Source: Mesostigma viride (taxonomy: Eukaryota > Streptophyta > Mesostigmatophyceae > Mesostigmatales > Mesostigmataceae). Taken from it: a stretch of 64,000 nt of DNA. The notes beneath the pieces are model-generated. The model worked only from the letters and a program-made list of their open reading frames with translations, was not told where the DNA came from and did no database searches. The position numbers and the translations under genes are program-made. The stretch lies in the NCBI GenBank assembly GCA_009746045.1, contig RPFO01001139.1, forward strand, positions 147,501 through 211,500. The letters are read 5' to 3'. Shown here piece after piece: positions 17,946-32,900 of this stretch; position 1 is the first letter of the stretch, and the number at the start of each line of letters is the position of its first letter.

Positions 17946-20900
17946 GTGAGCGACAGGCATGAGCAACTACAAGCCAAATCATGAAGTTGCTCAAAGGCAC
18001 ACATTAGGCGGTCGTTCCTCATCAGCGGGTGAGCCAGAGGCAGAGGTAGGTTACCTGTTGAGGGTGGCCGATTCAAGAATGTGGAACGCATGCCAGCCGC
18101 TAGGAAGAAAAAGCTTCTATCGGAGGTAGTACCATAGTTGATTATGGAGGGCATCCTTTCCCGGCGCTAATGTCTAATTTGTTTGTCAGATATTGGCAAT
18201 TAAGAACAGCATCACGCGTGTCATTAAACGACTGCTTTCCTCAATGCCTGCAGTAATTGATGTGTACTTTTGCTGGCTGTCTACTTCAATGGATGCAACT
18301 GGCTTCCCATGTCTGGGTGATGGAGATGACTACATGGCCATGTGCAAGCGCTGGTGTCGCTTACCAATGAAGAAAGCCGTTGCTTTTGTCTCCCCTGATC
18401 GCCATTTCCACCTCTATTGCTGCTGTCTCCCCTGATCGCCATTTCCACCTCTATTGCTGTTGTCTCCCCTGATCGCCATTTCCACCTCTATTGCTGTTGT
18501 CTCCCCTGATCGCCATTTCCACCTCTATTGCTGTTGTCTCCCCTGATCGCCATTTCCACCTCTATTGCTGTTGTCTCCCCTGATCGCCATTTCCACCTCT
18601 ACTGCTGCTGTCTCCCCTGATCGCCATTTCCACCTCTATTGCTGTTGTCTCCCCTGATCGCCATTTCCACCTCTATTGCTGCTGTCTCCCCTGATCGCCA
18701 TTTCCACCTCTATTGCTGCTGCCTCCCCTGATCGCCATTTCCACCTCTATTGCTGTTGTCTCCCCTGATCGCCATTTCCACCTCTATTGCTGTTGTCTCC
18801 CCTGATCGCCATTTCCACCTCTATTGCTGTTGTCTCCCCTGATCGCCATTTCCACCTCTATTGCTGTCTCCCCTGATCGCCATTTCCACCTCTATTGCTG
18901 TTGTCTCCCCTGATCGCCATTTCCACCTCTATTGTTGTCTCCCCTGATCGCCATTTCCACCTCTATTGCTGTTGTCTCCCCTGATCGCCATTTCCACCTC
19001 TATTGCTGCTGTCTCCCCTGATCGCCATTTCCACCTCTATTGCTGTTGTCTCCCCTGATCGCCATTTCCACCTCTATTGCTGCTGTCTCCCCTGATCGCC
19101 ATTTCCACCTCTATTGCTGCTGTCTCCCCTGATCGCCATTTCCACCTCTATTGCTGCTGTCTCCCCTGATCGCCATTTCCACCTCTATTGCTGTTGTCTC
19201 CCCTGATCGCCATTTCCACCTCTATTGCTGCTGTCTCCCCTGATCGCCATTTCCACCTCTATTGCTGCTGTCTCCCCTGATCGCCATTTCCACCTCTATT
19301 GCTGTTGTCTCCCCTGATCGCCATTTCCACCTCTATTGCTGCTGTCTCCCCTGATCGCCATTTCCACCTCTATTGCTGTTGTCTCCCCTGATCGCCATTT
19401 CCACCTCTATTGCTGCTGTCTCCCCTGATCGCCATTTCCACCTCTATTGCTGTTGTCTCCCCTGATCGCCATTTCCACCTCTATTGCTGTCTCCCCTGAT
19501 CGCCATTTCCACCTCTATTGCTGTTGTCTCCCCTGATCGCCATTTCCACCTCTATTGCTGCTGTCTCCCCTGATCGCCATTTCCACCTCTATTGCTGTTG
19601 TCTCCCCTGATCGCCATTTCCACCTCTATTGCTGTTGTCTCCCCTGATCGCCATTTCCACCTCTATTGCTGTCTCCCCTGATCGCCATTTCCACCTCTAT
19701 TGCTGTTGTCTCCCCTGATCGCCATTTCCACCTCTATTGCTGCTGTCTCCCCTGATCGCCATTTCCACCTCTATTGCTGTTGTCTCCCCTGATCGCCATT
19801 TCCACCTCTATTGCTGCTGTCTCCCCTGATCGCCATTTCCACCTCTATTGCTGTTGTCTCCCCTGATCGCCATTTCCACCTCTATTGCTGTCTCCCCTGA
19901 TCGCCATTTCCACCTCTATTGCTGCTGTCTCCCCTGATCGTCATTTCCACCTCTATTGCTGTTGTCTCCCCTGATCGCCATTTCCACCTCTATTGCTTCT
20001 GTCTCCCCTGATCGCCATTTCCACCTCTATTGCTGTCTCCCCTGATCGCCATTTCCACCTCTATTGCTTTGTCTCCCCTGATCGCCATTTCCACCTCTAT
20101 TGCTGTTGTCTCCCCTGATCGCCATTTCCACCTCTATTGCTGCTGTCTCCCCTGATCGCCATTTCCACCTCTATTGCTGTTGTCTCCCCTGATCGCCATT
20201 TCCACCTCTATTGCTGTTGTCTCCCCTGATCGCCATTTCCACCTCTATTGCTGCTGTCTCCCCTGATCGCCATTTCCACCTCTATTGTTGTCTCCCCTGA
20301 TCGCCATTTCCACCTCTATTGCTGTTGTCTCCCCTGATCGCCATTTCCACCTCTATTGCTGTTGTCTCCCCTGATCGCCATTTCCACCTCTATTGCTGCT
20401 GTCTCCCCTGATCGCCATTTCCACCTCTATTGCTGCTGTCTCCCCTGATCGCCATTTCCACCTCTATTGCTGTCTCCCCTGATCGCCATTTCCACCTCTA
20501 TTGCTGTTGTCTCCCCTGATCGCCATTTCCACCTCTATTGCTGCTGTCTCCCCTGATCGCCATTTCCACCTCTATTGCTGTCTCCCCTGATCGCCATTTC
20601 CACCTCTATTGCTGCTGTCTCCCCTGATCGCCATTTCCACCTCTATTGCTGTTGTCTCCCCTGATCGCCATTTCCACCTCTATTGCTGCTGTCTCCCCTG
20701 ATCGCCATTTCCACCTCTATTGCTGTTGTCTCCCCTGATCGCCATTTCCACCTCTATTGCTGCTGTCTCCCCTGATCGCCATTTCCACCTCTATTGCTGT
20801 CTCCCCTGATCGCCATTTCCACCTCTATTGCTGTCTCCCCTGATCGCCATTTCCACCTCTATTGCTGTTGTCTCCCCTGATCGCCATTTCCACCTCTATT

Positions 20901-29900: not shown

Positions 29901-32900
29901 CCCCTGATCGCCATTTCCACCTCTATTGCTGCTGTCTCCCCTGATCGCCATTTCCACCTCTATTGCTGCCTCCCCTGATCGCCATTTCCACCTCTATTGC
30001 TTTTGCCTCCCCTGATCGCCATTTCCACCTCTATTGCTGTTGTCTCCCCTGATCGCCATTTCCACCTCTATTGCTGCCTCCCCTGATCGCCATTTCCACC
30101 TCTATTGCTGCTGTCTCCCCTGATCGCCATTTCCACCTCTATTGCTGTCTCCCCTGATCGCCATTTCCACCTCTATTGCTGCTGTCTCCCCTGATCGCCA
30201 TTTCCACCTCTATTGCTGCTGTCTCCCCTGATCGCCATTTCCACCTCTATTGCTGCTGTCTCCCCTGATCGCCATTTCCACCTCTATTGCTTTTGTCTCC
30301 CCTGATCGCCATTTCCACCTCTATTGCTGTTGTCTCCCCTGATCGCCATTTCCACCTCTATTGCTGTTGTCTCCCCTGATCGCCATTTCCACCTCTATTG
30401 CTGCTGTCTCCCCTGATCGCCATTTCCACCTCTATTGCTCTTGTCTCCCCTGATCGCCATTTCCACCTCTATTGCTGCTGTCTCCCCTGATCGCCATTTC
30501 CACCTCTATTGCTGTTGTCTCCCCTGATCGCCATTTCCACCTCTATTGCTGCTGTCTCCCCTGATCGCCATTTCCACCTCTATTGCTGTTGTCTCCCCTG
30601 ATCGCCATTTCCACCTCTATTGCTGCTGTCTCCCCTGATCGCCATTTCCACCTCTATTGCTGCTGTCTCCCCTGATCGCCATTTCCACCTCTATTGCTGC
30701 TGTCTCCCCTGATCGCCATTTCCACCTCTATTGCTGCTGTCTCCCCTGATCGCCATTTCCACCTCTATTGCTGCTGTCTCCCCTGATCGCCATTTCCACC
30801 TCTATTGCTGTCTCCCCTGATCGCCATTTCCACCTCTATTGCTGCTGTCTCCCCTGATCGCCATTTCCACCTCTATTGCTGCTGTCTCCCCTGATCGCCA
30901 TTTCCACCTCTATTGCTGCTGTCTCCCCTGATCGCCATTTCCACCTCTATTGCTGTTGTCTCCCCTGATCGCCATTTCCACCTCTATTGCTGTTGTCTCC
31001 CCTGATCGCCATTTCCACCTCTATTGCTTTGTCTCCCCTGATCGCCATTTCCACCTCTATTGCTGTCTCCCCTGATCGCCATTTCCACCTCTATTGCTGC
31101 TGTCTCCCCTGATCGCCATTTCCACCTCTATTGCTGCTGTCTCCCCTGATCGCCATTTCCACCTCTATTGCTTTGTCTCCCCTGATCGCCATTTCCACCT
31201 CTATTGCTGCTGTCTCCCCTGATCGCCATTTCCACCTCTATTGCTGCTGTCTCCCCTGATCGCCATTTCCACCTCTATTGCTGTTGTCTCCCCTGATCGC
31301 CATTTCCACCTCTATTGCTGTTGTCTCCCCTGATCGCCATTTCCACCTCTATTGCTGTCTCCCCTGATCGCCATTTCCACCTCTATTGTTGTCTCCCCTG
31401 ATCGCCATTTCCACCTCTATTGCTGTTGTCTCCCCTGATCGCCATTTCCACCTCTATTGCTGCTGTCTCCCCTGATCGCCATTTCCACCTCTATTGCTGC
31501 TGTCTCCCCTGATCGCCATTTCCACCTCTATTGCTGTTGTCTCCCCTGATCGCCATTTCCACCTCTATTGCTGTTGTCTCCCCTGATCGCCATTTCCACC
31601 TCTATTGTTGTCTCCCCTGATCGCCATTTCCACCTCTATTGCTGCTGTCTCCCCTGATCGCCATTTCCACCTCTATTGCTGCTGTCTCCCCTGATCGCCA
31701 TTTCCACCTCTATTGCTGTCTCCCCTGATCGCCATTTCCACCTCTATTGCTGTTGTCTCCCCTGATCGCCATTTCCACCTCTATTGCTTTTGTCTCCCCT
31801 GATCGCCATTTCCACCTCTATTGCTGTTGTCTCCCCTGATCGCCATTTCCACCTCTATTGCTGTTGTCTCCCCTGATCGCCATTTCCACCTCTATTGCTG
31901 TTGTCTCCCCTGATCGCCATTTCCACCTCTATTGCTGTTGTCTCCCCTGATCGCCATTTCCACCTCTATTGCTGCTGTCTCCCCTGATCGCCATTTCCAC
32001 CTCTATTGCTGCTGTCTCCCCTGATCGCCATTTCCACCTCTATTGCTGCTGTCTCCCCTGATCGCCATTTCCACCTCTATTGCTGCTGTCTCCCCTGATC
32101 GCCATTTCCACCTCTATTGCTGTTGTCTCCCCTGATCGCCATTTCCACCTCTATTGCTGTTGTCTCCCCTGATCGCCATTTCCACCTCTATTGCTGTTGT
32201 CTCCCCTGATCACCATTTCCACCTCTATTGCTGTCTCCCCTGATCGCCATTTCCACCTCTATTGCTGCTGTCTCCCCTGATCGCCATTTCCACCTCTATT
32301 GCTGCTGTCTCCCCTGATCGCCATTTCCACCTCTATTGCTGCCTATGGCTGCCTCTGCACAACTGGCGCATGCAGCGGGAGCGCTTTCGTGGAGATGTAT
32401 GTGGGTGTGGGCGCCTCACGCGTGCGCGACGTATTCGCCCAAGCGCGCAAGCACGCGCCCTGCATTGTCTACATCGACGAAATCGACGCGGTCGGGCGCG
32501 CGCGTACTAACCACAACCTTCGTAGCGGCGCTGATGATGAGCGCGACAGCACGCTGAACCAGGTCCGTAGGAGGAATTTCAGAAGAACCCTGGGGTTAGG
32601 GAGTTTTAGAAGGTGCGAATATAGTAAATAGCTTGCTGAACTTGGTGCGTGGGTGCAAGCTTGGTATGTGAGGTCCGCATGCAAACATCAAGATGGATAT
32701 TAAGTCCAAAGGTGCAAGGTTAGTACGTGTGCCAGCTTACAGTCCTTGCCGCGGCAAATCATGGGCCATTTTGTGCGGGTGTGGGTGCAGTACCCTGTAC
32801 CCTAGGAGAAAGGAACAAGCTGCAAATGTGTGCTGCGATACGCCGAACGAGCGCCAATATGGCACAGCCGGGTAGAACTGAGCATACGTGTAAGTGGGAA

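Follow-up and report, generated by a model that had tools for sequence, protein, structure and literature searches.

In the present study, we analyzed a stretch of 64,000 nt (the window, whose positions are used below) of contig RPFO01001139.1 from the alga Mesostigma viride (assembly GCA_009746045.1, 440 Mb in 2,243 contigs). We found that an intron of an m-AAA/FtsH-like protease gene in this window consists almost entirely of a 37-bp minisatellite, and that no AG dinucleotide occurs on the sense strand over the last 13,997 nt before its acceptor. Each copy of the unit contains CTGAT, a candidate branch-point motif. The explanation that we favor, with a confidence just above even, is that an AG-free stretch with a branch point, situated next to the acceptor, was amplified neutrally.

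The array intron of the protease gene

The gene, its intron and its paralogue have the following parts.

17371..17945, + strand: exon preceding the array intron, with the Walker A region (5' end set by the open frame; the annotated protein P0001 starts inside)
17946..32375, + strand: array intron, 14,430 nt, GTGAGC...CAG, phase 2 (gene model and reading frame)
17946..18388, + strand: 5' part of the intron outside the array, 443 nt (AG scan and array search)
18377..32373, + strand: AG-free stretch, 13,997 nt (AG scan of the sense strand)
18389..32342, + strand: 37-bp minisatellite, 381 copies with one CTGAT each, sense strand 76% pyrimidine (Tandem Repeats Finder, TRF, and fuzzy matching)
32343..32375, + strand: tail between array and exon, 33 nt, without YTNAY, ending in the acceptor CAG (motif scan)
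32376..32562, + strand: exon 2 (spliced translation and P0001)
33299..33493, 34007..34117, 34861..35229 and 35831..36286, + strand: remaining exons, the last including the stop (spliced translation)
54589..61463, + strand: paralogue, P0002 (protein search and gene model)

A protein search with the spliced gene found the EukProt protein Mv02318 (jgi/Mesvir1; P0001), with 98% identity and 100% query coverage, and also Mv25007 (P0002), which is the paralogue inside the window. P0001 matches letter for letter within the spliced translation, joins 17945|32376 exactly and has exon 4 from 34007; thus, the annotated protein uses exactly the donor (GTGAGC at 17946) and the acceptor (CAG ending at 32375) of the array intron. 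The 14,430-nt intron keeps the frame. By the gene model and the frame, the predicted junction between exons 1 and 2 is that of an intron. P0001 contains the domains AAA (PF00004, 7.1e-45) and Peptidase_M41 (PF01434, 9e-61), and the gene is thus that of an m-AAA/FtsH-like protease. The N-terminal membrane domain FtsH_ext (PF06480) was found in none of P0001, P0002 and P0003 at E <= 0.001, and therefore we call the gene m-AAA-like; among the 120 relatives listed for the spliced protein, FtsH_ext is precomputed in most. Both paralogues are open throughout, and the values of dN (0.147) and dS (0.432) between them (NG86, 531 aligned codons) fit purifying selection.

The last AG before the acceptor is at 18375-18376, and the next is the acceptor itself, at 32374-32375. 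No other gap between AG dinucleotides in the window comes near this one of 13,999; those that follow in size are of 841, 324 and 258. Upstream of it, AG is ordinary, with 31 occurrences within the first 430 nt of the intron; the intron thus has an AG exclusion zone. The other strand of the array is rich in AG (2,085, each a CT on the + strand). The preliminary description of this DNA, made from the letters alone, had claimed that about 380 units fill an intron of an m-AAA protease gene, that no sense AG occurs from about 18376 to the acceptor and that every unit contains CTGAT and pyrimidine-rich sequence, and it had proposed an AG count on both strands. All of this agrees with our counts (381 copies; AG-free from 18377 to 32373; CTGAT in 381 of 381 copies; no sense AG against 2,085 on the other strand). 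Its emphasis on an AG-free intron holds for the 13,997 nt before the acceptor but not for the first 430 nt.

The array accounts for 13,954 nt of the intron. TRF reported it at 18380-32342 with a period of 37, 381.2 copies and 96% matches, and fuzzy matching found 381 cores, the first at 18389. With a head-to-tail unit between 15 and 100 bp, it is a minisatellite. The 380 units between successive cores are of 17 kinds and mostly 37 bp long (320 units; the others are of 34 bp, 33 units, 35 bp, 15 units, and 36 bp, 12 units), and nearly all of the variation lies in a short CTG/TTG linker. Only eight copies have a substitution in the 31-nt core, of five kinds, all transitions. Six units with the linkers CTCTTG (2), CTTTTG (3) and CTTCTG (1) would be transversions unless they arose by slippage, and none of them makes an AG. 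AA and GG are absent from the array proper as well; the single AA and the two GG of the AG-free stretch are all in the 33-nt tail. The unit kinds follow a non-random order. Of the 60 positions compared between units 233-292 and units 293-352, 48 agree, and the score of this pair of 60-unit blocks (2.2 kb) is 37.2, whereas the maximum among 100 shuffles was 24.0. Thus, duplication of a block of about 60 units probably accounts for at least part of the growth of the array.

Absence of AG in copies of one unit

For a random sequence of 14 kb the absence of AG would be surprising, but it is not surprising for copies of one 37-mer. When 37-mers from the rest of the window were closed into rings, 5,862 of 49,964 (11.7%) were AG-free, and the fraction rose to 53.3% among 20,000 permutations of the letters of the unit and to 166 of 207 among equally pyrimidine-rich 37-mers, with the focal array and a CCATC array left out. 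Furthermore, only 9 of the 111 possible single substitutions of the unit would create an AG, each of them a transversion. Without selection, the probability of no AG is 0.36-0.81, depending on the number of independent events assumed (5 to 12) and on the weight given to transitions (1 to 4 times). Most simply, then, the array lacks AG because its single founding copy did, and not because selection has kept AG out. Selection against AG within the array is neither shown nor needed. We looked for it through all unit variants and all AG-making substitutions and do not claim it, since the variation of this very uniform array gives no power: an AG needs a transversion, and the core substitutions, of five kinds, are transitions only. 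The earlier suggestion that AG is kept out is thus not supported, in view of the background rate, the permutations, the parallel absence of AA and GG and the need for transversions. Of the two fates offered for the amplification in the preliminary description, toleration is consistent with a sequence that is AG-free up to the acceptor and, if the first-AG rule applies, with an unchanged product; selection finds no support in the probabilities given above.

The window and other parts of the genome provide further arrays for comparison. Of 15 arrays picked by hand from the 37 TRF rows of the window, eight, among them the focal array, lack AG on the + strand, and some of the eight are outside the gene. 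A broader sample of minisatellites, with periods of 20-80 and at least 3 copies and with the focal array left out, was drawn from the window, eight small loci and one further contig, of which twenty 10-kb stretches were used (two consisting half of N); 6 of its 31 arrays are AG-free on one strand or the other. Two arrays lie close together in intron 2 of the paralogue, an AG-rich one of 61 bp in 10 copies (56114-56718; 48 AG in 605 nt) and an AG-free one of 33 bp in 6 copies (56990-57189), and the 93-bp array of intron 5 and the 52-bp array of intron 4 contain 29 and 2 AG, respectively. Thus, intronic arrays here need not be AG-free. The comparison with arrays elsewhere, which had been proposed in the preliminary description, showed AG-free arrays among the others and an AG-rich one inside an intron of the paralogue.

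One locus of the sample (L015, at about 1.90 Mb of contig G000:C2133) has a second, unrelated 37-bp array, pyrimidine-rich and of 78 copies (2791-5685), with a minus strand that has no AG between 2790 and 5753 (2.96 kb). On that strand, the array comes after a long open frame and before a TTTTCAG. A protein search found no relatives of this frame among 7,989 candidates at E <= 0.001. Ten open frames from L009, L012, L015, L020 and L021 gave three Pfam matches (BT1, reverse transcriptase and RING finger), and the one L015 frame among them gave none. The neighbor of this array, at 1-2316 of L015, is another minisatellite, of 47 bp in 49 copies. The 31-nt core of the focal unit itself, with up to 6 substitutions allowed, had no copies in 216,932 readable bases of 28 loci of the same genome or in the window outside the array, and a 28-mer of the unit had no exact match in the prokaryote and virus contig collections.

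Branch point, origin of the unit and alternative explanations

In the AG-free stretch, CTGAT occurs 381 times and is the sole form of YTNAY (also 381). The copy nearest to the acceptor, in the last unit, has its A at -59, and the last 58 nt contain no YTNAY. Provided that the first-AG rule holds in this alga and that YTNAY is preferred, the repeat unit thus probably supplies the branch point; under the scanning rule, an AG-free stretch places the expected branch point in the array or a few nt before it. The other nine introns of the two protease genes have AG-free zones of only 27-72 nt before the acceptor. At the same place, the paralogue has an intron of 847 nt (54903-55749) without an array, so that the array is probably an addition. 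That intron also has a CTRAY with its A at -60.

The history that we favor is that an ordinary spliceosomal intron of roughly 0.5 kb expanded, through tandem copying of a single 37-bp segment, to 14.4 kb, the part outside the array now being 476 nt (443 + 33). The founder segment would have been situated about 33 nt upstream of the acceptor, pyrimidine-rich, AG-free and with CTGAT. It was probably the region in which the intron already had its branch point and polypyrimidine tract, or it took over that role. Its copies may have multiplied by unequal exchange or slippage, including the duplication of about 60 units, as the pattern of unit kinds suggests, and this would keep them nearly identical. 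Because no copy has an AG, every CTGAT would read to the same acceptor under the first-AG rule, and any copy number would give the same mRNA; thus, the expansion would be nearly neutral for the product and could be tolerated without selection on the array. The most-used branch point would probably be in the last unit or units, at -59. The cost, 14 kb of extra transcription, is seemingly borne.

Several observations weigh against this history. The junction and the branch point are predicted here from sequence and annotation. A YTNAY upstream of the array has its A at 18363, only 12 nt before the AG at 18375, and with the short-distance AG bypass described in passages of PMC1431707 this site could still serve; five other upstream candidates would meet several AG first. 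Since plant-type branch points are weak, an adenosine of the 33-nt tail (in CACAAC) might also act as the branch point, in which case the array could be irrelevant. As for the origin of the unit, alignments of the intron end with that of the paralogue are ambiguous. For the last 67 nt, the score was reached by 33, 58, 22 and 202 of 1000 shuffles under four scorings, and for 100 nt by 157, 264, 120 and 496 of 1000. The paralogue intron 1 was the best of nine introns in this end alignment under some scorings only. The likeness of the two ends is thus suggestive but overall not significant. A derivation of the unit from the paralogue intron 1 had no significant support in a Smith-Waterman alignment, in which 444 of 2000 shuffles reached the score and the reverse complement of the unit scored higher than the unit itself (23 vs 20). 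With such non-significant alignments, we can only infer that the unit may be an amplified ancestral branch-point region.

A less probable alternative, but the most serious one, is that the minisatellite is neutral and unrelated to splicing, with a weak branch point in the 33-nt tail and an AG-free sequence due to chance and homogenization. AG-free arrays are indeed not rare, as is shown by the 6 of 31 in the sample and by arrays of short units beyond the gene (for example CCATC at 62340-63159, + strand), and the letters of the unit give an AG-free order by chance in 53% of cases. However, the tail has no YTNAY, the array lies within the stretch in which a branch point is expected under the scanning rule, and it ends 33 nt from the acceptor in an intron with a remainder of only 476 nt. 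We regard it as unlikely that the array is instead a selected AG exclusion zone, where arrays with AG beside the acceptor were lost and only AG-free ones could grow. The contrast between no sense AG in 13,997 nt and 2,085 on the other strand would agree with such selection, as would the treatment of human AG-gain variants between the branch point and the acceptor as splice-disturbing (PMC10655562) and the impaired expression that follows insertion of an AG into a large AG exclusion zone (passages of PMC1431707). But the lack of power and the probability of no AG without selection, both described above, argue against it, and introns 2, 4 and 5 of the paralogue tolerate arrays with AG, although at a greater distance from the acceptor.

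It seems improbable to a high degree that the array is regulatory, its branch-point and pyrimidine modules holding U2 components or pyrimidine-tract proteins, or its length delaying the mRNA. A sense strand of 76% pyrimidine with a branch-like motif every 37 nt would suit this role, and the protein Heph of Drosophila, at introns bearing satellite, offers a precedent (passages of PMC6508621). The paralogue, however, lacks the array, and the last 246 nt fold no better than shuffles (z -0.18), so that a special RNA structure at the array end was rejected. Finally, the copy number or arrangement might be partly a product of assembly, the true array being shorter, longer or variable. To this we give hardly any credence. 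The PacBio N50 of 11.2 kb published for M. viride NIES-296, perhaps not the assembly of the window, is below the length of the array (PMC6947507), and in our judgement some of the unit kinds with indels could be residual long-read errors; yet the same published assembly also used optical maps (passages of PMC6947507), the interspersed unit kinds with their non-random blocks are unlike a collapsed or looped repeat, and the absence of AG does not depend on the exact copy number.

A wider reading is that introns of this genome act as a filter near their acceptors. Only repeats free of sense AG would expand there, and those with a branch-point motif would become distributed branch-point arrays, any copy of which serves one acceptor. 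We offer this generalization tentatively, as a rather doubtful one. The 37-bp array of L015, if it is intronic, may be another case of such a filter.

Comparison with known introns and other features of the window

The mean intron of M. viride is given as 1,142 nt, with repeats making up 30.1% of the intron space (passages of PMC6947507), and the array intron is 14,430 nt. Among AG exclusion zones, passages of PMC1431707 (Gooding et al. 2006) cite a human one of 1,126 nt as striking. The array intron resembles the AG exclusion zones and distant-branch-point exons described there in its AG-free stretch adjoining the acceptor, with ordinary AG farther upstream and candidate branch points inside. 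Unlike the quoted example, its zone consists of a tandem repeat, is 13,997 nt long and offers 381 candidate branch points, of which the nearest is at -59, so that a distant branch point, as in the exons of that class, is possible but not required.

According to passages of PMC6508621 and PMC11207136, simple satellite makes up megabases of the introns of the Drosophila Y genes kl-3 and kl-5, and these introns are transcribed. Production of kl-5 mRNA requires Heph, the Drosophila homologue of PTB, which localizes to two Y-loops with satellite-bearing introns, A and C (PMC6508621). From the orientation of the probes (AATAT)6 and (AAGAC)6, and not from the text of these papers, we infer the transcripts (ATATT)n and (GUCUU)n, both AG-free. 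The array intron is like those of kl-3 and kl-5, as these passages describe them, in being mostly tandem repeat in a gene that is apparently unbroken; the Drosophila introns are expressed. It differs from these megabase introns of 5-mers in the male germline in that it has 14 kb of a 37-bp unit, in an alga, with an array that ends 33 nt from the acceptor. Although it is longer than the norm and mostly satellite, it is not of megabase size, and we do not file it as a gigantic intron of the Drosophila Y type.

In Caenorhabditis elegans, CeRep25B and other intronic minisatellites are linked to splicing (passages of PMC4039745), and like the array here they carry splicing-related motifs. The CeRep25B repeats differ in being 24-base, palindromic and enriched near alternative exons, and the passages of PMC4039745 describe no AG-free array adjoining an acceptor among the intronic minisatellites of this species.

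The unit of a minisatellite in the human gene 6-16/G1P3 holds a splicing signal, and this minisatellite supplies multiple splice donors, not branch-point modules. In the open-licence literature of PubMed Central, a search for Mesostigma minisatellites gave simple sequence repeat markers only, and nothing pointed to a case of branch-point and polypyrimidine modules in a minisatellite intron. The finding combines an AG exclusion zone with a satellite-filled intron, at a smaller scale and in an alga, and is filed among repeat-filled introns, not as a new mechanism. If the branch points of the array are used, it is a natural experiment on the distance over which the spliceosome searches for the first AG, with 14 kb and a candidate every 37 nt, and bears on why some tandem repeats expand inside genes and others do not. 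If the branch point is outside the array, the case is still a clear one of a neutral satellite in an intron more than 10 times the published mean, in a gene apparently unbroken.

Several other features of the window were observed. In the last 150 aligned codons of the paralogues, approximately the last exon (35831-36286 and 61014-61463), dS is 0.15 and in the rest 0.58, as if by gene conversion. A telomere-like repeat of the CCCTAAA type occurs three times at 57793-57813, within intron 2 of the paralogue, and the CCATC pentanucleotide array at 62340-63159, of 164 copies and without AG on the + strand, is downstream of the paralogue. Between the two paralogues, at 41614-52364, two 572-nt repeats that are 98.8% identical and 10 kb apart flank minus-strand frames resembling, by eye, gag, reverse transcriptase and integrase; this is probably a young long terminal repeat retrotransposon. 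Finally, 9495-9915 and 10878-11298 are a direct duplication of 421 bp with 99.8% identity.

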